This document shows positions 1,349-18,395 of a stretch of DNA of 54,700 nucleotides, one piece after another. The translations under genes were made by a program, and so were the position numbers. Source of the stretch: Leptolyngbya sp. Heron Island J (GTDB lineage Bacteria > Cyanobacteriota > Cyanobacteriia > Phormidesmidales > Phormidesmidaceae); NCBI RefSeq assembly GCF_000482245.1, contig NZ_AWNH01000030.1, forward strand, positions 1-54,700, written 5' to 3'. A model generated the notes under the pieces. It made no database searches, was not told the DNA's origin, and saw nothing but the letters and a program-made list of their open reading frames with translations. The stretch's first letter is position 1; each line of letters opens with the position of its first letter.

Positions 1349-4300
1349 TCAAGACTCCTGACATGCATCCGCTTCAGGCAAAGGCTCTTGAGTTTCTAAG
1401 TGTTTGGCAAAGTTCTCAGAAATACGGATCGTATGAAAGCCGTCGTTGATGCTGCCCCGCATTGCCTGATCCGTGTAGCCTGATTTCTGAATCCAGCTCA
1501 TTTCATTGCTAAGTGGATCACGAACTGAGAGATAGATACCAGAGAAGTGTGCTCGAATAATAATTTCTTCATCCGGCTGGATGTTCAGCCCCTGTATTGT
1601 ATCTGCGAGGGGTTCTTGGACATTGTCGTTAAACCCGGTGAGGATACGACGACCATTCTCTTTCAACTCTCCTTCAAGGTTAGTAACTTCCCACCAATCT
1701 GTGCGTTGCTCACAACTTTTATCCGGAGTCTGAATAGTTGTCTTCACAGAGTATTGACCGGGCTGTTTGCCAGGTTGAGTATCAACCTTTAAAACGATCG
1801 GCCCTTCAATCAATTTTGGATTTTTCTCTTCTGCCAGAACTGTTATTATTTGGGTCAAACCAAAAGCTTTTCCGGTAGGTTCAGCTTTTCGTAAGGCGTT
1901 TACTGCTTTCCCCCACTGTTCTCGCTTTGCATAATAAGTAGCAATCGTCACCATGGGGCGATTAGCGTTTTCCTCTCTAGCAAAACGCAAGAGCTCTTCT
2001 AGTAAAGCTGTATCTACTGTTTCACTGAGTCTTGCTACAATGGCATGTAATATATCTGATTTAGATCCATTCTCCTGCACGTTCTTAGCGACAGCAACAG
2101 CGTTGAGTAAAACTTGCTTAGCCGTCTGCTTATCTCCTAAACCGCTGTATATATCTGAGATCTCGATCAAGGCTATTGATTTAGACTCATTGTCCTGAAT
2201 GTCTTGGGCAGCAGCAATGGCATCAAGCAAAACATTCTGGGCCATCTGCTTGTCTCCCAAACTACTGTAGGTATTTGAGATAGCACTTAACGCATACGTT
2301 CTAGACCAGTCGCCTTGAATGTTTTGTACAGTAGTAATGACATCGCGTAAGACCTCATTCGCTATTTGCTCGTTCGCTAGCTTACCAGTGACATTGATAA
2401 TCTCACGCAGCGTCCTCGATTTATACCATTCGTTCTGAATGTTTTGTGCAGTATTAATAGCATTGCGTAGGACCTCCTCCGCCGTTTGCTCATTCCCTAA
2501 ACTACTGTAAGTACTTGAGATTGCACTCAAGGCTATCGATTTGGACTCGTCGTCTTGAATGTCTTGAGCAGCAGCGATAACATCAAGCAGGGGTTCCTTT
2601 GCTGTCTGCTCATCTCCTAATCGGCTAATGGCGTTGGCAATCTCACTCAAGACCATTGATTTGGATACGTCACTTTGAATATCTTGAGCAGCAGTAATAG
2701 CATCGAACAAAACCTCCTTTGCCAATAGTTTATCCAGCAAGCTGCTAGTGGCATTGGCAATCTTACTCAAGCCCGTCGTTTTAGACCAGTCATCCTTAGA
2801 GGTTTCAATAACAGCAATGGCATCAAGCAAGACCTCCTTAGCTAACGGCTTGTCCACTAACCTGCTAGTGACGTTAGCGATCTCACTCAACACCTTTGAT
2901 TTAGACACGTTGTTCTGAATGTCTCGAGTAACAGCGATAGCATCTTGTAAGAGCTCCTTAGCTAGCAGCTCGTCACCTAAGCTTCCATAAGCGTACGCAA
3001 TCGCACTCAAAACTTCTGATTTAGATACATTGTTCTGAATGTCTCGAGTAGCTGCGATTGCATTGTACAAAAGCTCCTTAGCTAGTAACTTGTCGCCTAA
3101 GCTTCCATAAGCGTACGCAATCGCACTCAAAGCCTTTGATCTAGCTCCGTTGTCCTTAATTATCTTTGAAAATCCTCTTAGCCTGGAAAGTGTAACAGTA
3201 GAGTTATTTTCATCAGTCATGGGCAAGAAAGCTGCTATATCTCTGATGATGGCGGCTAACTCAGCATCTCTGGCTTTATTTTCTCCTTCATTCGATAATT
3301 TTTTAATGATTCTCTCTACCTTACGCCACTCATTGTTCTTGGCAAATGCCACTGCCGCTTCAGTCATCCGTGTCGTTGAAATATCATCCAACAGTCCCAT
3401 CAGCTGTCGCTTGGCATTCCAAATCTGTCCCTGGGGCGTCCAATACACCCAACCGCTGCCGCTGACCCCAATCAACACCACCAGTGCCAGCGCCAAACTG
3501 CCACGGTAAAGCTGTTGCTGACTCAGCTGCATTAGCCGCTGCTTTTGCTGCCGCTTACTACCCCACACCAAATAAGGCCGCTGCCGCTCCAGCTGCCACA
3601 GCTCCCGCATCCCAAACAAATACCGCCGACTGCAGTCATTCCCTAACCACTCATTTACCCGCCGGTCCAGTAGCTGATTTGCCTTGTCAACGTCCGACAG
3701 TTCCTTCCCTGCCAACCGCATCAACGCCGGTATCAATCGCTCATGGGCCAGCTCATATCCCGTCTGCCCATCCTGCTCCTGGGGCGTAACCAGCCGCACA
3801 TCCCCCCGCGCCAGCCAGGTCACCGCCTCGGTCACATCCTCCGCCTTAACCGTGGCCCTGAGCGTGTCTTTCAACATCGGCACCGTCAGCACCCCCGCCC
3901 GCACCTGACTATCCAGATCCGTCAGCGCCAGCAACACCTTGACCGCCGACTGCCGCTGACTAGGGATCACCCGTGCATCCAGAGTGCGCTCTAAAAAGCG
4001 GGTGAGCAGTCCTTCCACCCCACCAAACTTCTGAAACGCATTTTGGTTAAAGGCCCGCAGCTCGTCTGCTGTCTGCCGCTCAATCATCCAGGCCAGAATC
4101 TGCACATCCACGGGGGAAATCAGCCCGTCTTCCCGATTGGCCAGTTCCTCTTCCGCCAGCTCTGTAACAAACCGTTTGTTAAACTCCAGTCCCTCTGTCT
4201 GAGCAATCACCTCCAGCACATTGGCCGCTTCACGGGGGGTAAACTTCTCCAGCTGAAATACTTCCTGGGGTCCCAAGGCATAGCCCAATGCCTGGTGCAG

Positions 4301-5194
4301 TGCATTCAGCTGATGCAGCATATCCGACCGGATCGACACTAATATCTTGACCGGCAGCGGCTCTGGGTCGCGATACCAGGCGACAAGCTGATGGATAAAC
4401 GGCTCTCGATCTTCCTGCCGCCGTTGATGGACAAAAAATTGCTCAAACTGATCAAATAGCAGCACCAGCGGCTTTTCCTGACTCGCTGATGCCTGTTGTA
4501 GTACGACTAGCAACGGCTCCTGTGCCCCCTCCAACAGCGTTCCCAGGGGCACGTTCAGCTGTTCCGATAGCGCCTTGGCAATGGTCCGTGTGGGTCTTTG
4601 GTCGTTAAACCGGATATACACGCCCAGACAGTTTGACGTTTCTGCCATCAGCCGAGGCAACACCCCCGCTTGCAAAAATGATGTCTTCCCACAGCCCGAC
4701 TCTCCCATCAAAATGCCAAACCGGAAAAAGTTGCTGGTCAGTGAGTCCACACAGTCTCGCAGCTGTCGATGTCGCTGCAGCTGGGCATAGACTTCAGCAT
4801 CCCCCAGACTAAAGGGTCGCAGTCCTTTAATCGCCTTCCGCTCAATCGTGTCTGGTTGAGCAAAAACCGTCGTTTTAGGGATTGACTGCACCGCTATCAC
4901 CAGCGCTGTGGCAAACAGCCCCAGTTCCGTTGCCCAAAAGGCACCTTTATACCAGTCAGGCAAGGTTGCAACGTCTACGCTTAAAACCTTAAACGCAATC
5001 CCACTCCAGGGGTTAAACAGACAGGCAATCGTAAAGGCCACTAAGATACAGAGCTTCAGCCAGTTTTTACTCACGATTAGCTCAGCAATCCAGCGAATAA
5101 AACCGACAATCGCTTCGGTAGATTGCTTAAAAAAGTCACCGGAAAAGGGGGTGCCTGACATGACGATAGAAACGACCCGATTGCTGAGGAACAC
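1349..5194 (-). CDS. Membrane-anchored nSTAND1 NTPase with 40-residue helical repeats
   Basis: This 1281-aa signal-transduction NTPase of the STAND class is predicted to bind ATP and oligomerise when its sensor region is engaged. Two hydrophobic segments lie at about residues 47-60 and 88-103. The NTPase follows, with Walker A GESGCGKTS (164-172) and Walker B LVLLFDQFEQF (243-253), then a helical/winged region with YELAHERLIPAL. A third membrane segment is at about 565-585. Residues about 679-1080 are ten 40-residue TPR-like units of the type SKSxxLSAIAxxYSSLGD...AKEVLLDAIAxxxDIQ. The last 200 residues are an uncharacterised domain. Start is uncertain: a GTG at 5194 or an ATG at 5161, neither with a clear ribosome binding site. 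It lies 250 bases downstream of the NACHT gene on the same strand. The fold class is clear; the ligand and the output are not. Confidence 0.85.
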   Translation of the reverse strand: MFLSNRVVSIVMSGTPFSGDFFKQSTEAIVGFIRWIAELIVSKNWLKLCILVAFTIACLFNPWSGIAFKVLSVDVATLPDWYKGAFWATELGLFATALVIAVQSIPKTTVFAQPDTIERKAIKGLRPFSLGDAEVYAQLQRHRQLRDCVDSLTSNFFRFGILMGESGCGKTSFLQAGVLPRLMAETSNCLGVYIRFNDQRPTRTIAKALSEQLNVPLGTLLEGAQEPLLVVLQQASASQEKPLVLLFDQFEQFFVHQRRQEDREPFIHQLVAWYRDPEPLPVKILVSIRSDMLHQLNALHQALGYALGPQEVFQLEKFTPREAANVLEVIAQTEGLEFNKRFVTELAEEELANREDGLISPVDVQILAWMIERQTADELRAFNQNAFQKFGGVEGLLTRFLERTLDARVIPSQRQSAVKVLLALTDLDSQVRAGVLTVPMLKDTLRATVKAEDVTEAVTWLARGDVRLVTPQEQDGQTGYELAHERLIPALMRLAGKELSDVDKANQLLDRRVNEWLGNDCSRRYLFGMRELWQLERQRPYLVWGSKRQQKQRLMQLSQQQLYRGSLALALVVLIGVSGSGWVYWTPQGQIWNAKRQLMGLLDDISTTRMTEAAVAFAKNNEWRKVERIIKKLSNEGENKARDAELAAIIRDIAAFLPMTDENNSTVTLSRLRGFSKIIKDNGARSKALSAIAYAYGSLGDKLLAKELLYNAIAATRDIQNNVSKSEVLSAIAYAYGSLGDELLAKELLQDAIAVTRDIQNNVSKSKVLSEIANVTSRLVDKPLAKEVLLDAIAVIETSKDDWSKTTGLSKIANATSSLLDKLLAKEVLFDAITAAQDIQSDVSKSMVLSEIANAISRLGDEQTAKEPLLDVIAAAQDIQDDESKSIALSAISSTYSSLGNEQTAEEVLRNAINTAQNIQNEWYKSRTLREIINVTGKLANEQIANEVLRDVITTVQNIQGDWSRTYALSAISNTYSSLGDKQMAQNVLLDAIAAAQDIQDNESKSIALIEISDIYSGLGDKQTAKQVLLNAVAVAKNVQENGSKSDILHAIVARLSETVDTALLEELLRFAREENANRPMVTIATYYAKREQWGKAVNALRKAEPTGKAFGLTQIITVLAEEKNPKLIEGPIVLKVDTQPGKQPGQYSVKTTIQTPDKSCEQRTDWWEVTNLEGELKENGRRILTGFNDNVQEPLADTIQGLNIQPDEEIIIRAHFSGIYLSVRDPLSNEMSWIQKSGYTDQAMRGSINDGFHTIRISENFAKHLETQEPLPEADACQES
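1990..3165 (-). repeat. Tandem 120-bp repeats inside the nSTAND1 gene
   Basis: About ten in-frame units of 120 bases encode the 40-residue helical repeats. On the plus strand they can be followed by recurring strings such as CATCAAGCAA, TTGTCTTGAATGT variants and TCACTCAA at a constant spacing. The two units nearest 3000-3130 are almost identical at the DNA level, while the outer units are diverged, which points to repeated tandem duplication. Confidence 0.8.
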
Positions 5195-5446
5195 CTGCTG
5201 GATGCGTTACATCCTGAGTAAAGAATAATCGCATCAATCCTATTTGGTCAGTATCGTTTGATATTTCTCAAGCTTGTAGCTGACAGGCAGCCGCCAATGT
5301 TCGCCTGCTGCCAGCGGTTGGATCTATTCCCCTGTTTGGCTGCAGACGTTTAGGCGCTTGCGCTTAAATGATCCCTCATCACCCCATCACTCATCCACCC
5401 ATCTACAGCTTCAAGCTGGGACTTCATTTTTGTGCAATCCCCTTAT
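5195..5446. other. Intergenic region between the two STAND genes
   Basis: There is no credible gene here. The right-hand third (5354-5444) is one copy of a dispersed repeat described separately; it ends two bases before the stop codon of the NACHT gene. The rest is a leader region for the downstream STAND gene without a recognisable promoter. Confidence 0.6.
5354..5444 (+). repeat. Dispersed intergenic repeat, copy A
   Basis: About 91 bases align with copies B (13781-13873) and C (20332-20425, opposite strand). Conserved blocks are GCGCTTAAAT, CCCCATCACTCATCC, CCCAT, TACAGC, TTCATTTTTGTGCAATC and CTTA, all at fixed spacing. The centre reads as degenerate 7-base steps (CCCATCA, CTCATCC, ACCCATC). 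The flanks of the three copies are unrelated. Confidence 0.8.
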
Positions 5447-8400
5447 CTATGCGCTCTTGGCCTTTCGTAACATTTGGAACCACTGATGCAACAACAGTAG
5501 CCGAATTCGATAACAATCATAGCCATCTGGATGCTCTGTTTGCTCAACGATGCCAAAATTCTGTAGCACATGCACTGCGTCCAAACATTGAATCTCGGAA
5601 ATATTTAATTTCTTGGTCAAGAATCCCAATAATGTCCTAGCCCGCAGCCAGCCGTCCATGTTGTTAGAGGCCGCTGTCATCATACTCAACGCATTGAGAA
5701 CATGATGCACCTTGGGTTTTGAGTTATAGGCTCGCAGTTCGCCAATGATGCCATACTCAACATAGGTTTTGATGGCCTGGTCGCGGAAGACTTTTCGCAA
5801 GTGCAGCTGGGCAAACATATAGGAAATTTGACCGGCGGTGTCAGCCTCTGGCTGTGCGACTGCTTTTTTGATCAAAAATCCGGCTATCTTTCTGACCACA
5901 AAAGGATGCCCGCCGCTCAGTCGATAGATTGCTTGGATCGTCTGGCGATCAAATTCCCATTTCATCAGGCTACCCAAGCCGTTGATTAAGGATGCGGTTT
6001 CCTGGATGGAAAAAGGTTGCAAAAACGATTCTTTGAAAAATCGGTATATGGGATTTTTAGACACGTCCGAAAAATCCCATTGTTTAATGCGATTACACTG
6101 GGGATGCACGGCTGTTACCAATAAGGACACAATCTGTTCTTTTTGGTTTAAGGCGCGTAATGAACTAAATACAAAGTCAAATTCTTCTGCTTTCTCTTCA
6201 AATCGTTCATTAGAGCGAGGGAAAACCCTGTCTAGATTATCTAAACAACAAAAGATAGGTAACTCGTAGCCCACGCCTTCAAGATCCTTGGAGAGCTTTT
6301 TAAAGTGTTGGCCAAAGTCACGCGATGCTTCTTTGATCGGGGCACCGCTCTCCGACAACAGGGTTGGTTTCTCTAATAAAGGATTTCTGTTCTTGGCCAA
6401 GGTATAGAGGTTTTGCAAGATATCGTCTAACAGTTCAATGCCGTAACCAATGTCGCTGTAGGCTTGCAAATCTATGTAGATAATGGCATGGTCCTGGCAC
6501 ATTAGGGAGAGCTGATGGATGACGGATGTTTTGCCGGATTTACGTAGACCGAACAGTCCAACGCTCTGATTATTTTTTAAATCTGTTGCTAATTCTGTCA
6601 GTAACTCTGTACGACCAAAAAACAAGAGCTGGTCGCGAATCGGCTGCTTATCCCTAAAGAAGTCAATGGCACCAGTGTATTGATGTATATGGTTTAAGAA
6701 GACATCTTTACAATCATCGGCACTGGCCACAACGTTTTCTATCTCTGCTAGAGAAATGGGAATCACGTTGAAATCCTGATAGACCCTTAAGTCTGCGATT
6801 AGCTGTCTGGTGGCAACATCAGGTAGCTCCTTATAGAGCAGCACTCCGGCTAAATCAGGATTGTGGGCTCTAATTTCGTCAGATTTCTGGAATAATGTAT
6901 TAATGTCCTCTTCTGTCGGTCGTTCTGAGACGACGGATACGAAAAAGGGTGGCTTGAGGCCAAATTCTTCTGGCAGTTCGGAAATGAGTAGATTTTGTTC
7001 GTCTTCTTGTTTGGCAACGGCACCGACTTGATCTAAAAAACTTTGGCCAATCAGCATCGCTGGTCTGGCCTCACCAATACTCAACGAGAGAATGTGTTCC
7101 TGAACCGATTGCCATAACTCGGGCGAAATGCGTTTGGCTTCTTGTCTGCATTTCAGCATCAGCAGGGTGACATACAGGCAGTCTTGGCAGGCCCTGGCTT
7201 CTTCTCGTGATAATAATAGCCACGATTCGTCTACTTTGAGAATGCCAAGGCATACTTGCTTGAGTTCATCTAAAAACTTTTTGTGGATATGGCTGGGAAA
7301 CTGAGTGCCGGGTATATTGAGGCTTAATCGGTTCAGTTGTTCGAAGAGGGTGAGGAAGTCAGACCCAGAAAAGATTTCGTTTTGCTTTAAGTCCTGGTCG
7401 ATGGAAGCGCGCTGTTCATGACTTTTCAGATATCGCATACTGCGAACACTGGCGCGCTTGCGGATTTTGTTGGCGAGGGGTTTAGCGAGCTGAACGGCTT
7501 TTTTAAGTTCGGTCTGAGCTCGTTTTTTAGCTGATGGCTCACTCAGCTTGCCTGTTTTTTTGACCTGGATGACAACACTTTGAAAGGCGTTGATTAGGTG
7601 GGTGGTCAGGGTTAAGTCGCTGGAGGCTCTGAGGTTGTAGATAAAGGGTTGCAGCAAGGCCTGAACGATTTCTAGCTCTCCTTTGAGTTTGGAACTCTGC
7701 GCTAGAATCCGGCTGTAGTGGAAGGCGCGATAGAGAGCATTGGCTCGCTTTTCGATCAGTTTTTCGGGGGTGGGTTCATCGGCGGTGACTTGTGCGGCCC
7801 ACATCCATAATGAGCTGAGCTTTTCGGTATTGATGTATCCCTGGGCTACCTGGTGGAGATAGAGCAACAGGTTGATGACATTGCTTTCATCGTATTTGAG
7901 GCCAGCAATGAGTAAAAAGACTTCTTCCCAGCGTTTATCGTTGGCATATAGCCGCACCATCTCTGAAAGAGATTGGTTGCTGTAGTTTTCGTGGATGTAC
8001 TTGGCGGCTAAAAATTCCTGGAAGGTGAGGTGAGAAAAGGAATATATGCCTTCGGATTGTTCTACTAGGATGCCTTGCTGAATTGCGATCGCATCCAAGA
8101 TCGCCTCTCCACTTAAATTACTCGGCGCATTCAGCTCCTTTAGCAAAAAGTCTCGAATGTGCTCAACTAAACTAATCTTAGTCAGCAACAGCTTATCTTC
8201 CCTAAAAGCCTTATAGGCAATCTCAGCCAGCAGCTTCTCTTCTAGCTCAACATGCAGCCCTTCATAAATTCCCTCTTTAGAAACCCGTTTTTCATCAAAC
8301 CACTTCTCTAGCAGAATCCGTAGACCCTCATGGTAGAGGATACTGCGATTCCCTGCGAACGTAAAAGAACGACTATAAACCAGACATAAGAAGGTCAGGA

Positions 8401-9328
8401 GTAACGGCGTCCGAGCCAGTTCCCTAACGGCCACATTATCTGAGCTGCGAATCGACTTCCAACACTTTTCAGCCGCTTCAACCCCCTCTTCTCCATCCGT
8501 CGCAAACCAGCTGTAAATAAAACTTTTAATCTGGTCTTGACCATTACCCGCCAACGTAATTTCGCGAAAACTAGACGATGGGCTACGATAGGCCGCCGCT
8601 CGACAGGATATAACGTAACGATTTTTCTTGTAGCGTTCAACAAAGGCTTCAATCTTATCCAGTACCCGATGACGAACACTGGATGAAACCTCATCTAAGC
8701 CATCAAATAAGATTAAAAACTGTCCTTTTTTGAGGATGTTTTCAGTAATTTTGACACTCTCTGGAAAGTCAAACGATTCTAACTCGCTGGCAATATAACT
8801 CTGAAACCCAATTGGCCCCTCAGTGAGTTTCTTTAAATCAATCCAAATGGGTAGACAGACATGATGAAATTCAGCTTCATTGGCATCTTTAAGTGCCTCT
8901 AAACCAATTTTGCGAAGCAGTGTAGTTTTACCCACCCCTGGAGCACCAATGATTGATAAATACTGTTGCTCATCGGCAATACTAATAGCCGTTCTCTGAC
9001 GGGATGAACTTGACGATAGCCGACGCTCATTACGAGCCCGACAAACTCTTTCCATATCATCAATAGACATGGAATTATTGATTTCACTTTCTTCTAAAAA
9101 ACGTACCGGAACATAAACCGCATCCAGGTTTACGGACTTACTCATTCCTAATACTTTCAGCGTGCCGTGGCGTTCTCGAAAGCGTTGCACATATGCCTGA
9201 GAAGCAGACAGAACCATCTGTCTCGTCTGTTGATTAGGACGCTTTTTGAATAGCCCGAAGAAAAACCCTCTTCTGGTACCCAATGCGTCAATAATTAAGT
9301 TAGCTAACGATTGGGCTTGTGCAGACAT
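5447..9328 (-). CDS. NACHT NTPase fused to a second AAA/STAND NTPase
   Basis: This 1293-aa protein carries two P-loop NTPase modules. The first is a canonical NACHT: Walker A GAPGVGKTT (128-136), Walker B LILFDGLDEV (205-214), the RTPLLLTFLCLVY helix (about 306-318) and the family hallmark FSHLTFQEFLAAKYI (431-445). A mostly helical stretch follows (450-780), then an alpha/beta segment of about 100 residues. The second NTPase begins at FFGRTELL (903): Walker A GLRKSGKTS (927-935), Walker B PIFCCLDNLDRV (1024-1035), then LSGGHPFVVR (1137-1146) and a probable winged-helix tail. No membrane segment is seen. NACHT proteins of bacteria include antiphage proteins; that role here is inferred. It shares strand and neighbourhood with the nSTAND1 gene and may be cotranscribed with it. 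Confidence 0.88.
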   Translation of the reverse strand: MSAQAQSLANLIIDALGTRRGFFFGLFKKRPNQQTRQMVLSASQAYVQRFRERHGTLKVLGMSKSVNLDAVYVPVRFLEESEINNSMSIDDMERVCRARNERRLSSSSSRQRTAISIADEQQYLSIIGAPGVGKTTLLRKIGLEALKDANEAEFHHVCLPIWIDLKKLTEGPIGFQSYIASELESFDFPESVKITENILKKGQFLILFDGLDEVSSSVRHRVLDKIEAFVERYKKNRYVISCRAAAYRSPSSSFREITLAGNGQDQIKSFIYSWFATDGEEGVEAAEKCWKSIRSSDNVAVRELARTPLLLTFLCLVYSRSFTFAGNRSILYHEGLRILLEKWFDEKRVSKEGIYEGLHVELEEKLLAEIAYKAFREDKLLLTKISLVEHIRDFLLKELNAPSNLSGEAILDAIAIQQGILVEQSEGIYSFSHLTFQEFLAAKYIHENYSNQSLSEMVRLYANDKRWEEVFLLIAGLKYDESNVINLLLYLHQVAQGYINTEKLSSLWMWAAQVTADEPTPEKLIEKRANALYRAFHYSRILAQSSKLKGELEIVQALLQPFIYNLRASSDLTLTTHLINAFQSVVIQVKKTGKLSEPSAKKRAQTELKKAVQLAKPLANKIRKRASVRSMRYLKSHEQRASIDQDLKQNEIFSGSDFLTLFEQLNRLSLNIPGTQFPSHIHKKFLDELKQVCLGILKVDESWLLLSREEARACQDCLYVTLLMLKCRQEAKRISPELWQSVQEHILSLSIGEARPAMLIGQSFLDQVGAVAKQEDEQNLLISELPEEFGLKPPFFVSVVSERPTEEDINTLFQKSDEIRAHNPDLAGVLLYKELPDVATRQLIADLRVYQDFNVIPISLAEIENVVASADDCKDVFLNHIHQYTGAIDFFRDKQPIRDQLLFFGRTELLTELATDLKNNQSVGLFGLRKSGKTSVIHQLSLMCQDHAIIYIDLQAYSDIGYGIELLDDILQNLYTLAKNRNPLLEKPTLLSESGAPIKEASRDFGQHFKKLSKDLEGVGYELPIFCCLDNLDRVFPRSNERFEEKAEEFDFVFSSLRALNQKEQIVSLLVTAVHPQCNRIKQWDFSDVSKNPIYRFFKESFLQPFSIQETASLINGLGSLMKWEFDRQTIQAIYRLSGGHPFVVRKIAGFLIKKAVAQPEADTAGQISYMFAQLHLRKVFRDQAIKTYVEYGIIGELRAYNSKPKVHHVLNALSMMTAASNNMDGWLRARTLLGFLTKKLNISEIQCLDAVHVLQNFGIVEQTEHPDGYDCYRIRLLLLHQWFQMLRKAKSA

Positions 9329-10531: not shown

Positions 10532-10978
10532 ATGCCCCTGGGAGCTGTCCACGGCTGGCTGTCCCAGCAGCCTCGGGTAAATGAGCTGGCTATGGGCATT
10601 GCTATGACTATTTTGGGTAGCGGTCTGGCTTTTTTTCTGGGTAAGTCGTTTATTCAGCTCCAGGCCCCGCAGCTGCAGGCGGTGCTTAAGATCAGTCCGT
10701 TATTTTTAGGGGTTGCGATCGCGCTCCTGCTCCAATGGTTTTTTCGCGCCATCCACTGGGGGATATACGTGCGGGCCATAGGCGACAGTCCCGCAGCTGA
10801 CCGAGCTATGGGCAGTTCCATTTTCAATGTGGGGATGTCCAGCAGTATGGCCGGTAGCGTTCTAGCAGGCCTGGGCGGAGCCTGTTTATCGCTGTACTAT
10901 CCCAGCGTCTGGACCGAGCGCATCCTGTTTAATGCGATCCCGTATATTTTGACCTTGCTCATGATGATTGATGACTAA
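10532..10978 (+). pseudogene. Truncated BMP-type ABC transporter permease
   Basis: The 148-codon frame encodes part of an inner-membrane permease of the YufQ/BmpD type: the segment ANELxxGIAMTILGSGLA (here VNELAMGIAMTILGSGLA), several hydrophobic helices, and RAIGDSPAADRAMG. About 100 N-terminal residues are missing. Near the end SLYYPSVWTERI is joined directly to LFNAIPYILTLLMMI, so the conserved block between them has been deleted in frame. The ATPase gene that normally belongs to such an operon is absent. Its stop overlaps the start of the next gene, as expected for an old operon. Confidence 0.75.
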
Positions 10979-11354
10979 CACGATTAAGCTTGCGGTGAAT
11001 GGCACTCTGATGCGGGGGTTAGCGCTGAATCCTAATTTAATTAATGTGGATGCCACCTTTGAGCGGGAGACAAAAACAGTATCGACTTATCGGCTTTGGT
11101 CGATTGATGATCACTACCCGGCCATGATTAAGGTGCGAGAGGGTGGGGTTGCGATCGCGGTTGAAGTATGGCAGGTGCCATTGGCAGGGTTGGGTGTAAT
11201 TCTCTCGCAGGAACCACCGGGGTTAGCGATTGGTAAGGTGATGCTACAGGATGGAGAAGAGGTGTTGGGAGTAATTGGTGAACCGTTGACGGTTGAGGGC
11301 AAACGGGAGATTAGCCAGTATGGCGGCTGGCGAGATTATTTGGAGGCAAAATAA
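10971..11354 (+). CDS. Allophanate hydrolase C-terminal-domain-like protein
   Basis: This soluble protein of 127 aa resembles the stand-alone C-terminal (AtzF-type, gamma-glutamylcyclotransferase-like) domain of allophanate hydrolase. Key stretches are LAVNGTLMRGLALNPNL, the central YRLWSIDDHYPAM, EVWQVPLAGLGVIL, QEPPGLAIGK and the terminal SQYGGWRDYL. The conserved NGTLMRG loop and the GGW end are intact, so the gene looks functional although the transporter genes before it are broken. The ATG at 10971 is preferred over the TTG just upstream. The overlap with the permease remnant suggests it was the last gene of that operon, possibly linked to urea-like or nucleobase-derived nitrogen compounds. 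Confidence 0.75.
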   Translation: MTNTIKLAVNGTLMRGLALNPNLINVDATFERETKTVSTYRLWSIDDHYPAMIKVREGGVAIAVEVWQVPLAGLGVILSQEPPGLAIGKVMLQDGEEVLGVIGEPLTVEGKREISQYGGWRDYLEAK

Positions 11355-14456: not shown

Positions 14457-16091
14457 TTAAAACCGATCGCCAACGTTAAAGATAACTCTCGTATCCCCTT
14501 CATCATTGATACCAAACTCCAACCGGACCGGCCCAAACGACGTCAGCGCCCTCAAACCAAGACCATAGCCAAACCCATCACCCGGCTTATCTCGAACCTC
14601 CGCAGGCCGACCAATGACCTCATCACCTGTCCCTAAATCAGTTGCATAATCAAAAAAGAACGTGCCGCCCAGAGCCACGTCATCATCAAACGCATTGAAA
14701 GACAGAATCGGAAAACGATACTCAGCACTTGCCTGAACAAAACTCTCGCCAGTGCCCACTTCTCCCGAACCATAGCCCCGAACAGAACTCGAACCGCCTA
14801 AGCTAAACGCATCATAGGGAGGTGTATCGCCTAAAATGGTGCCCCCCTGAAGATTCAGCACTAACGTGCGTGGCCCCTCGGTAAAGCCAAACAGATTCAG
14901 CGGTAAAAACTGAGTATAGTTGGCGCTGAGGCGAGTAAATAAGATATCAGCATCGCCAATGGGAATCGACTGGTCCACACCAAACAGTAGCTTAGACCCC
15001 TTGGTCGGATTGCGAGTGCTATCCCGAGAATCAAAAATACCGGCCAAGTTAATAGTCAGCAGATCGTCTTCGCCATCATCACTCACGGTGAGAGCATTGC
15101 CCAACTCATCCGTAGGGGCAATATCGTCCGAAAACACATCCTCTCGCACCGAAATCTGCTGATAGGAAACGCCCAAGGCCGCTTCTAAATTGGTGGCCAG
15201 GGGCCGGAAATATTCAACACCGCCGCCGATGCGATGGACCCAGGGTTCATCACCGCTGGGGGTTTCTAACTCAGTATCACCCCCTGTAAATTCGGGCTCT
15301 ACAGCACGCTGATTGGCAAAGTTGATGCCGTAGCCGGACTCATCGTCAAAAACTTCTCTAAAGTCTAAATCCACCCCCAGAATGTTCTCACCCCCCTCAA
15401 TGCCCAGGGATAGAGTGCGATCGCTGCCGCCAAGGTTGGCGATTCCCACCCGTACACCTGCCGATATGCCTCTGGCACTATTGGATAAAGCGGGCACTGT
15501 TGAGGGGTGTGAAGGTCCCTGCAGCGCCGTTGGTCGGGATACCGTCAGGTCAAAGGTAAAGAAAAAGTCGTTGGGCTTGTCTACGTTGACAGCCATCAGC
15601 ACCTGGTCAGGGTCAGCGGCAGGCTCCAGGGTCAGGGTTGCTTGCTGGTCTGTGGCAAATAAACTCGCAACTCGCGTTAGCCCTGCTAAGGCCAGTTCTG
15701 GATCGTAAACATCACCTGGCTGTAGTGCAAATTCCTGGGCAATTCTCTGAGACCGGGCTGTTTCTTCAACTAAATTGCCATCCGGGTCGATATAGCGAAT
15801 TTGAATATCGGCAATCACCTCTCCATTGCCTGAGGGCACCGTCAGTTCGGGGCGTTCAGCAGCTGACAAGGTTGAGGTAGCTGGACTGTGGTCTTGAGCA
15901 CCTTGGAGTGCCACCAAATCTAAGACGGTTAGCTCTGCCGCCTCAGTTGACGAAGATAGAACTGAAGTATTGGTTTGCGCCCATCCCGGCAGTGCGAATA
16001 GCAAAGGACTAGCGATAATGCTTAATGGTAGTGATAAGGTCCACCCACGCTGCCGTAAAAGATGTAGTAATAACAACAGTTTTATCTTCAT
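14457..16091 (-). CDS. Omp85/BamA-like outer-membrane protein
   Basis: This is an outer-membrane beta-barrel of the Omp85 superfamily, used for protein or lipid assembly or transport across the outer membrane. After a signal peptide (hydrophobic stretch SLPLSIIASPLLFALPGWAQ) there is one POTRA-like unit (ELTVPSGNGEVIADIQIRY...TLTLEPAADPDQV). The barrel follows, with LGIEGGENILGVDLDF, the SLGGSSSVRGYG loop motif typical of Omp85 proteins and the C-terminal strand ending GDTRVIFNVGDRF. The last residue is phenylalanine, as expected for BAM recognition. I prefer the ATG at 16091 because it puts the signal peptide near the N-terminus; the frame extends to a TTG at 16181. With one POTRA it is shorter than BamA and closer to TamA/FhaC-like or small cyanobacterial Omp85 homologues. 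Confidence 0.8.
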   Translation of the reverse strand: MKIKLLLLLHLLRQRGWTLSLPLSIIASPLLFALPGWAQTNTSVLSSSTEAAELTVLDLVALQGAQDHSPATSTLSAAERPELTVPSGNGEVIADIQIRYIDPDGNLVEETARSQRIAQEFALQPGDVYDPELALAGLTRVASLFATDQQATLTLEPAADPDQVLMAVNVDKPNDFFFTFDLTVSRPTALQGPSHPSTVPALSNSARGISAGVRVGIANLGGSDRTLSLGIEGGENILGVDLDFREVFDDESGYGINFANQRAVEPEFTGGDTELETPSGDEPWVHRIGGGVEYFRPLATNLEAALGVSYQQISVREDVFSDDIAPTDELGNALTVSDDGEDDLLTINLAGIFDSRDSTRNPTKGSKLLFGVDQSIPIGDADILFTRLSANYTQFLPLNLFGFTEGPRTLVLNLQGGTILGDTPPYDAFSLGGSSSVRGYGSGEVGTGESFVQASAEYRFPILSFNAFDDDVALGGTFFFDYATDLGTGDEVIGRPAEVRDKPGDGFGYGLGLRALTSFGPVRLEFGINDEGDTRVIFNVGDRF

Positions 16092-16316
16092 ATTTTTAGG
16101 AGATAACTTTGCTTCGCTTAATTTTGACAGCTTTGAGGCAATCTTAGCCAATCTTAATGGAATATCTGGCGCAGTTGGCAAAAGATGTCAGATGCCTCAC
16201 CATAAAAATCTAAAAAACCTCCCAATGCTTTATTGAGTAATGGATAGCAATACACCCCTAGCCTCTGTAGCAGATACATGCGATCGCACCAACCTTGGTA
16301 ACAAATGCTACACACC

Positions 16317-18395
16317 TTATAAAAAGACGATCTGCTTACGACCTGTATCTAAATGCAAGTGAGAACTATAAATGAGAATTCCCCCTGGCCAGGAGGACCT
16401 CAGGGCGTTAGCGACCTGACGTACGCTAACGCCTGGCACATACATATCCACAGCACGTCCCGATAGGTGTTGGCTATTAGTAGCCCCTCCCACTGCTTCA
16501 TTAGACTGGGGATCGCGATACCAGGAATTGATCACAAAAGGCTGGCCGATAATATTCCGCGCATTCTGCAGTGCCCTGGCAAACGTGATAATGTTGTCAA
16601 CAATTTCAGGTGTTGTGGGAATGCGTGTACCATTCTTGGTGGCTTCTCCCCAGGTAAAGTTACTGTCAGTAAAGATCGGCTGTTGCGTATAAAATAGGCC
16701 CTCCTTGCCAGGCAGCCTAAAGGATTTGCCAGCAAAAGGAGGATACAGAACCTTACCATTCCAAGTGACCTGAGCATGCTGGTCATAAACATACCAGGTA
16801 CTAAATGACGAAATAAAGTCTGACTCTAGCTTTAAGGCAAACTTAATATGACCATTAAAAGACTTTCCTTGCTCGTCTTTATAAGCCCAGGAATCAAGGA
16901 TAAAAGAATTGCCTGATGGGATTGAGGCTTTTTCCTCAGTCGGGAGTTCTGATGACTGTAAAGGACGTCGTTTAATAATTGTGTTTTGGGTAAAGTTGAG
17001 GATAGGCGTAGGGGGATAAACAATGTTTTCGTCATATTCGACATAGGAGTGTCTATCGTAGACATACCACTGGCTTAGGCCCTTAAGAAAGTCTTTTGGG
17101 TCTTTGATGGAGATTTTAATATGGCTGCTAAAGTCTCCATGGGAATCCTGATAGGCATAGGAATGTAAGATAAAGTTGGTTTCTTTTTTAACTTCAACTT
17201 TTTCTGTGTCAGGCAGCTCGCTAGATGGCATCGGTCGCTGTTTAAAGATGGTATCGCGATACACCCTAAGCTGGAAAACAGTTTGTTGCTCTTCCCAAGG
17301 ATAAACAACTTCATCATCAATCTCAACTTGCACATACTGGCCTTCTATAAACCAGGTGTTGAGTCCACGGATGGTCGTTTCCTTTAAGGCCACTTTAATA
17401 TGACCGTTAAAATCGCCAGCGATGGGGTCAGCATAGGCATAGGAGTGCAAACTATAGGAGTCTCCTGCCTGCACAGGTTCTTTCTCGGCGTCACTCAGCT
17501 GAAGGGTTTCTTCTGGCCTGAGCTTCAAGACGGTATCTTGCTTGATCATCAAGCGGGTAACTGGACCGGGGGGCTCAGCGTCAGGGTCAGTGTTATCGGG
17601 AGGCTCTGGTGTATCGAGCAGGCTCTTCCAGGTGCCTGGACCCACTACTCCGTCAGCTTGTAACTCATTAGCCTTTTGAAAGTCTTTGACAATTCCTTCC
17701 GTAATCGTGCCAAAGAAACCATCGGCTGTTAACTTAAAACCCTTATCCACCATGGACTGCTGCATGACTTTAATGTCATCCCCAAACATAAATGGTTGGG
17801 TTAATGAGACTGTCCTCTGACCAGGGGAAAACGGACCTTTGAGACCAGTAAAATAGGATTGAGGTTTGCTTAAAACCCCCTTAAGAAACTGTTGCCCCGG
17901 TGATGACACATACAGATTGCTCTCACTGGTTAAAAATACCTCGGCTTCTGCCAGACGGCGCTTGAGTAAACCGGCTTCGACGTTGGTATTGGGGTTACGA
18001 TAGAGCACCAGTGCGGCTTCTATTTCGTCCCAGGCGGCGTCTTTCAGGACGCGGGTAATGGTTTGAAAGCCGCTATTGCCATAAAAGGCAGCGCCCAGAT
18101 TATAGGCAAAACTTAAAATGGCTCCCCGCTGGTCATCGTCCATGGTGTCCCAGGTGGGGATCTTGGTCTGCGGTGGTAGAAAACGGTTTTCTAAATCCCA
18201 ACTCAGGAGGGCTTCCGCCTCTGCTTGGGTGAGGCTTTCCCCCAGTTTGAAGGGGCTGCCATTTTGCTTACGGGTACTGCCGTAGCCAATGGTGATGGGT
18301 AAACCGTCCGCTGAACCAGGGTCTGGATAGGCGTCTAGTCGCAGTCCTTCAAATTTTTTGATCAGATCGATCGCAGCATCGGGAATAGCAGCCAT
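16317..18395 (-). CDS. Multidomain peptidoglycan hydrolase: GH24 lysozyme, PG-binding, three repeats, M15 peptidase
   Basis: This 692-aa protein combines two wall-cleaving activities. Residues 1-155 are a T4-type GH24 muramidase with the catalytic triad in register (E16 in KKFEG, D25, T35 in ITIGYG). Residues about 200-260 are a PG_binding_1 domain (DGFFGTITEGIVKDFQ, ADGVVGPGTW). Residues about 280-555 contain three copies of an unrecognised 85-90 residue module sharing RP..SSELP..EK, SYAY.D and HIK(V/I/F)..K...F...L..W(Y/F)(V/I). The C-terminus is an M15 carboxypeptidase-like domain with zinc ligands H643, D650 (SQHLSGRAVD) and H681 (HLHLD). There is no signal peptide, so it is either intracellular or released by another route, as phage endolysins are. 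Phage or tailocin origin is possible but no phage genes surround it. Confidence 0.88.
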   Translation of the reverse strand: MAAIPDAAIDLIKKFEGLRLDAYPDPGSADGLPITIGYGSTRKQNGSPFKLGESLTQAEAEALLSWDLENRFLPPQTKIPTWDTMDDDQRGAILSFAYNLGAAFYGNSGFQTITRVLKDAAWDEIEAALVLYRNPNTNVEAGLLKRRLAEAEVFLTSESNLYVSSPGQQFLKGVLSKPQSYFTGLKGPFSPGQRTVSLTQPFMFGDDIKVMQQSMVDKGFKLTADGFFGTITEGIVKDFQKANELQADGVVGPGTWKSLLDTPEPPDNTDPDAEPPGPVTRLMIKQDTVLKLRPEETLQLSDAEKEPVQAGDSYSLHSYAYADPIAGDFNGHIKVALKETTIRGLNTWFIEGQYVQVEIDDEVVYPWEEQQTVFQLRVYRDTIFKQRPMPSSELPDTEKVEVKKETNFILHSYAYQDSHGDFSSHIKISIKDPKDFLKGLSQWYVYDRHSYVEYDENIVYPPTPILNFTQNTIIKRRPLQSSELPTEEKASIPSGNSFILDSWAYKDEQGKSFNGHIKFALKLESDFISSFSTWYVYDQHAQVTWNGKVLYPPFAGKSFRLPGKEGLFYTQQPIFTDSNFTWGEATKNGTRIPTTPEIVDNIITFARALQNARNIIGQPFVINSWYRDPQSNEAVGGATNSQHLSGRAVDMYVPGVSVRQVANALRSSWPGGILIYSSHLHLDTGRKQIVFL

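Follow-up and report, generated by a model that had tools for sequence, protein, structure and literature searches.

The 54,700-nucleotide stretch of Leptolyngbya sp. Heron Island J analyzed here (the window, on contig C30) encodes a lysin of 692 residues that joins a GH24 muramidase, a peptidoglycan-binding region, three copies of an SH3b-like module and an M15 metallopeptidase. It belongs to a known kind, the endolysin-type hydrolases, in a variant form: two lysins fused in one chromosomal gene, with no leader and with a module that has no name. The gene looks functional. On balance, we consider it a double-activity peptidoglycan hydrolase that the host has retained, probably holds in the cytoplasm and uses after membrane failure. 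The features are as follows.

16317..18395, minus strand: leaderless GH24, PG_binding_1, 3 x SH3b-like module, M15_3 protein, ATG start (ORF call, Pfam, module alignment)
17916..18395, minus strand: GH24 muramidase domain, residues 1-160, E16/D25/T35 (Pfam, alignment of relatives)
17610..17783, minus strand: PG_binding_1 region, residues 205-262 (Pfam)
17286..17561, minus strand: module 1, residues 279-370 (repeat alignment)
17004..17279, minus strand: module 2, residues 373-464, the copy modeled, SH3b-like (AlphaFold model, structure searches)
16728..17009, minus strand: module 3, residues 463-556 (repeat alignment)
16317..16718, minus strand: M15_3 metallopeptidase domain, residues 560-692, H643/D650/H681 (Pfam, alignment of relatives)
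14457..16181, minus strand: Omp85-superfamily outer-membrane protein (Pfam), a neighbor that present evidence leaves outside the system

Pfam search revealed three families above their cut-offs, namely Phage_lysozyme (residues 13-150, E 5e-18), PG_binding_1 (205-259, E 1e-11) and Peptidase_M15_3 (595-683, E 9e-18), confirming the lysozyme and M15 peptidase that a preliminary description, made from the letters alone, had recognized in one protein. Residues 260-590 held no Pfam family with its best stretch there at E up to 1. Alignment divides this region into three repeats (281-368, 375-463 and 465-554) of 88-90 residues each, much as the same description had it, with three copies of a family-less module of about 85-90 residues; modules 2 and 3 are each 38% identical to module 1, with 22 invariant columns. 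The active-site residues, an E-D-T triad and H643/D650/H681, sit where they had been assigned and are conserved across relatives. E16, D25 and T35 are identical in 26 of 26 bacterial rows of the GH24 alignment, and the 76 viral rows contain no substitution, gaps alone being seen (10, 6 and 4 rows, respectively). In the M15 relatives, H643 is kept in 34/34 bacterial and 24/24 viral rows, D650 in 33/34 (one N) and 24/24, and H681 in 34/34 and 23/24 (one gap). As in endolysins, both peptidoglycan-hydrolase domains have intact active-site residues. A full-length structure model was poor (pLDDT 60.6) and set aside, promoter and terminator scans over the lysin region gave nothing decisive, and the papers listed on cyanobacterial GH24/M15 lysins had nothing on this protein in their titles and abstract openings.

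The AlphaFold model of module 2, based on an alignment of 19 rows from the window and related loci, has nine strands with a pLDDT of 90.7. Structural similarity search using VIA-align 2 placed putative dipeptidyl-peptidase VI chains at the top, with a rmsd of 2.5 over 65-66 aligned residues and a Z of 7.2, the maximum for this module and below the value of 8 under which a common arrangement only may be reflected. We take these chains to be of the NlpC/P60 type with SH3b domains. The next matches were NlpC proteins, bacterial SH3 domains and endolysin wall-binding domains (Z 4.8-5.7), the last including phiSM101 (5.7), LysPBC5 (5.4) and lysostaphin (4.8), and eukaryotic SH3 domains also matched (Z 4.1-4.5). 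In BFVD, the best match came from the cultured Synechococcus phage S-CBWM1 (E 7e-4, TMq 0.69, rmsd 6.2); it is annotated as a “putative peptidoglycan-binding protein” and was also found by tblastn with the module of the phage locus L250 (E 3e-3) and by the module HMM. Of the preliminary description, the possible ligand-binding repeats gained a predicted SH3b-like fold for module 2; the structure-database search proposed with them was productive in VIA-align 2 and BFVD, but Foldseek of module 2 against the PDB gave no match at E ≤ 0.001. By sequence, the module found nothing convincing in the PDB, and 30 members scanned against Pfam hit 17 stray families at E ≤ 1, the best at 0.014 and none SH3. 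Module 2 looks SH3b-like in its modeled fold.

Of the 386 cyanobacterial genomes sampled, 59 matched the module profile (A2); they represent 35 of 143 genera. Searched against 72,556 plasmid records, the three window modules matched four, all cyanobacterial (Leptolyngbya three, Oscillatoria one). The partners observed are M15_3, C39_2, VanY, PG_binding_1 and GH24. By eye, an amidase-like region lies beside the module in L027; L033, L034 and L042 are large proteins of three to six modules with a repeated unnamed domain between them, and the C-terminal domain of the former two looks C39-like. As far as sequence comparison tells, these matches define a wall-binding-like module that is common to cyanobacteria and phages and absent from Pfam.

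The kinship with phages is clearest in the GH24 half. Among the phages collection, 1,570 records match the window protein, none covering 80% of it; among the 20 listed, the lysins from Synechococcus phages share 50-60% identity with the GH24 domain, S-CRM01 (37%) excepted. The three window modules found no match in this collection at E ≤ 1. In IMG/VR, the whole window protein found no relative, A3 found one and the L091 protein only itself, whereas the profile scan with A4 gave 43 loci, 20 of them with the module (L135 and L136 encode one and the same protein, and L137 is a repeat of the contig of L091); L133 has three modules plus M15. PHROGs comparison of one or two neighbors each on seven module-M15 phage contigs revealed portal, terminase or minor head genes at L091, L133 and L135. 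At L134, the neighbor tested encodes a metallo-phosphoesterase and matches terminase-small weakly, and the single genes tested beside L138, L145 and L152 had no phage structural match. L250, a GH24-module-C39 protein and one among at least 80 GH24 viral loci, adjoins a virion structural gene (PHROGs). The phage-type character first suggested for the enzyme is therefore borne out, and the search for phage homologues proposed with it succeeded, by the Synechococcus phage lysins, the module-M15 genes on IMG/VR phage contigs and the GH24-M15 lysozyme of phage S-CBS3. In addition, an 88-residue hydrophobic ORF abuts the module-M15 gene of L091 directly upstream, and phage DSL-LC02 has a C39 peptidase gene separated from its lysozyme gene by a single other gene. 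One phage-contig ORF (L152:5581-6717) combines a holin-like hydrophobic N-terminus, the module and M15, possibly as a holin-endolysin fusion. In the portions cited here, a survey describes extensive endolysin gene transfer between phages and bacteria and favors bacterial origins (PMC12596118).

Genes matching some part of the window protein at E ≤ 1e-20 are found in 61 of the 63 genomes of the order, in keeping with the chromosomal setting that had been proposed. The module-M15 half is present in 31 of the 63 at E ≤ 1e-55, and the GH24-PGB half in 47 at E ≤ 1e-15, of which 31 at ≤ 1e-55; at the stricter limit both occur together in 24 genomes (31 each, odds ratio 12.2, a statistic that ignores kinship). 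The halves are separate genes in all ten genomes in which both loci were read (G426, G417, G422, G405, G215, G444, G427, G406, G392 and G410). The fused form exists in four genomes, namely that of the window, G400 (L035), G432 (L101, 789 residues) and G431 (L100, frame broken), and was not found in six of the eight genomes from its genus, the six including two incomplete ones (75% and 70%). The G431 gene is split over two reading frames (L100:6181-8495). L035, from a Leptolyngbyaceae MAG, is a full-length homologue of the same layout, 81-82% identical; one named genome record with a full-length homologue was found.

In the GH24 tree (44 rows), the four fused copies form one clade (SH-aLRT 97). 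In the module-M15 tree (38 rows), the window protein, L035, L101 and a contig-truncated copy of G443 also form one clade (99), the broken G431 copy being below the M15 score limit and present in the GH24 tree only. Since the fused forms cluster in both trees, one fusion is the simplest reading, by which the lysin would have arisen from two lysins that are separate genes in other genera of the family. The GH24-PGB proteins group together (95); phage L250 is their neighbor (80), and 14 cyanophage-type rows follow (89). Unlike the GH24 half, the M15 half is not close to phage copies: the window clade lies inside an all-bacterial group of 23 rows (97), six of the eight viral rows group with a bacterial paralogue of the type found on contig C15 (82), and the other two are long, unplaced branches. 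Both trees come from quick searches with SH-aLRT support only and no root between phage and host, and the direction of transfer is not proved by them. The GH24 tree includes 13 viral ORFs, left from 75 after removal of near-identical sequences, and four phage records; the module-M15 tree includes 38 of 48 rows, with near-identical viral rows removed and the repeats L003, L005-L008, L032, L132 and L137 left out beforehand. The gene is under purifying selection, with a dN/dS against L035 of about 0.07 overall and 0.03-0.15 per domain, values that are rough because dS (1.5) is near saturation.

An in-frame stop is located 14 codons upstream of the lysin ATG, with one rare-start codon (ATC) in between. 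Because GH24 begins at residue 1-13 and the stop is so close, no signal peptide fits, Sec or Tat, as in endolysins; a signal peptide from an alternative start is likewise ruled out. The absence of an export signal noted at the outset thus holds for the window gene and, by start and stop positions and hydropathy screening, for the near relatives examined. In 24 chosen loci the upstream stop lies 1-27 codons before the start, and as the ORF rule already takes the first ATG, GTG or TTG, this distance alone is informative. The hydropathy screen of 73 N-termini, of which two belong to additional copies of the window gene, reached a maximum of 1.81, which overlaps the controls (2.28, 3.0 and 1.81) with no clean separation. 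Firmer evidence for a leaderless state is that in 37 of 71 relatives a domain begins no more than 10 residues after the first start codon; the remaining 34 have longer N-termini, including L095, of uncertain start, with 302 residues before GH24. Two more distant GH24 relatives of 836-839 residues have a hydrophobic N-terminus, L110 (5437-7956) by the screen and L111 (5287-7797) by eye; Pfam SH3_3/SH3_4 domains follow GH24 in L110.

These N-termini bear on the alternative that the lysin is an ordinary wall-turnover enzyme exported by a leaderless route. Such an enzyme would agree with matching genes in 61 of 63 genomes, strong purifying selection, several copies per genome and the hydrophobic starts of L110 and L111; nevertheless, we regard it as unlikely, given that the near relatives examined have no signal peptide, that GH24 and the domain combinations resemble phage lysins, and that six of the eight genomes of the genus, two of these incomplete, yielded no fused gene.

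The 8.06-Mb assembly has GH24 in four genes: the window gene, a jacalin-GH24-M15 gene on C98, and genes for a 460-residue protein on C32 and a 232-residue protein on C106. A separate 3 x module-M15 gene is on C15. The C98 protein (L036:8545-10122), which places a jacalin lectin ahead of GH24 and M15, has no evident leader. In the C32 protein (L045:9410-10792), GH24 lies behind an M23-like region among plasmid-like genes (both by eye). The lectin-bearing paralogue, together with the two predicted activities and several wall-binding-like modules of the window protein, would suit an antibacterial that is freed by lysis of the producer and kills neighbors. Gram-negative neighbors would be shielded by their outer membrane, and no immunity gene was recognized among the neighbors scanned; accordingly this role is improbable.

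Pfam or PHROGs scans covered 29 of the 40 window ORFs of 120 residues or more (three by PHROGs only) and revealed STAND NTPases, TPR, Omp85, EAL, PAS, GlgB, polysaccharide genes, a transposase at the edge and others. Among the 28 neighbors scanned there was no phage structural or injection-system gene and no phage or prophage lysis cassette; a TPR protein has a weak terminase-small match (phrog_74) in which no stretch passes by itself, and this was read as a cross-match of TPR. No holin-like partner was recognized next to the window gene, and a small hydrophobic ORF lies beside the lysin in 5/21 phage versus 7/44 host loci, a count that does not separate phage and host. The Omp85 gene is adjacent to the lysin in two genomes, those of the window and L035. 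Five further genomes of the genus carry an Omp85 relative (60-81% identity) with no lysin beside it, two on short contigs (G402 3.2 kb, G401 7.5 kb), and the eighth, G398, has an Omp85 match of 46% only; with adjacency in only two of eight genomes, Omp85 was ruled out as a conserved partner. Two adjacent large STAND/NACHT NTPases (nSTAND1-TPR and NACHT) occupy positions 1349-9328 of the window; NTPases of this kind are often tied to cell-death or defense systems. At 10532-11354, a short permease-like piece precedes an allophanate-hydrolase C-terminal domain, and the two may be remnants of genes.

Phage-sheath-family genes are found elsewhere in the genome, one above cut-off on C8 and a second below cut-off on C14; the lysin lies on neither contig, and the window proteins scanned include no injection-system gene. 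Module and sheath genes co-occur: a sheath gene is present in 24 of the 59 genomes with the module and in 48 of the 327 without it (odds ratio 4.0, p 1.4e-5, confounded by kinship). The sheath genes and this association would favor a lysin that serves, or is carried by, a contractile injection system or tailocin, yet we consider this very improbable, as neither kinship nor genome size is accounted for in the association, 35 of the 59 module genomes have no sheath match, and no injection-system gene is present among the window proteins scanned. The tailocin or toxin type suggested in the preliminary description, and the injection-system (type VI) link to be looked for with it, likewise found no support. 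A recent prophage remnant without host function, as the endolysin-like domains might indicate, is hardly credible beside an 82% identical homologue with a dN/dS of 0.07, related genes across the order and neighbors scanned that include no phage structural gene.

We propose that the retained lysin works as follows. GH24 would cut the glycan, and M15 would act on the peptide stem or crosslink; the enzyme would be kept on the wall by PG_binding_1 and the three SH3b-like modules; the fusion would tie two lysins to one job. Because it has no leader, the enzyme would collect in the cytoplasm. It would reach the wall only when the inner membrane fails, be it through cell death, a holin of a phage or some pore of the host itself, and would then strip the wall of the dying cell or, once released, that of a neighbor. 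Points against this reading are the distance of the M15 half from phage copies, the lack of a recognized holin-like neighbor and the exported look of the L110/L111 kin.

Cyanobacterial cell death offers possible settings. In Anabaena ghost cells, as described in the parts of the report cited, the outer membrane and peptidoglycan are missing in 88 of 88, whereas the inner membrane seems intact in 41 of 88, and no wall-removing enzyme is named there (PMC8894136); given these seemingly intact membranes, a purely lysis-released enzyme fits only if it came from other cells. Necridia are dead cells that free hormogonia, and the main text of the paper names no endolysin or holin (PMC9415839). As a conjecture of low probability, leaderless lysins of the cyanophage style may form a standing set in cyanobacteria that removes the wall in regulated cell death. 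All would be built around the one SH3b-like module that has no name, partnered by M15, C39, VanY or GH24, and they would be the activity that strips stressed Anabaena ghost cells of outer membrane and peptidoglycan and opens necridia. These lysins would then be a candidate enzyme set for the disappearance of cyanobacterial walls in cell death.

Among the closest known systems is the lysozyme gp23 of Synechococcus phage S-CBS3 (ADF42481.1), which similarly has GH24 and M15_3 in one protein with no evident leader. Its GH24 domain is 54% identical to that of the window over 147 residues; however, gp23 has 359 residues, no PG_binding_1, no module found and an M15 of only 33% identity over 100 residues, and it is nearer to the GH24-M15 part of the C98 paralogue (47% over 341 residues) than to the window protein. 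The module-M15 genes of uncultivated phage contigs (L133, L134, L135, L138 and others) share the module and M15, found by the same HMM, but mostly have one module and no GH24, and their M15 groups with the C15-type paralogue. S-CBWM1 gp160 possesses the module without M15, and the region after it is C39-like by eye only, with no Pfam family at E ≤ 0.01. Elsewhere in the family, other genera have GH24-PGB and 3 x module-M15 as split chromosomal proteins, each matching one half of the window protein; they are encoded by two genes at separate loci and usually have two or three PG_binding_1 copies. Pseudomonas aeruginosa Lys, presumably of a different sequence family, sits in a pyocin cluster, unlike the window gene. 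Nevertheless, in the portions of the report cited, Lys is a chromosome-kept endolysin that lyses its own cells in explosive cell lysis (PMC4834629), similar to what we propose for the window lysin. Cytoplasmic storage and action at membrane failure would fit both the logic of phages and this self-lysis precedent.
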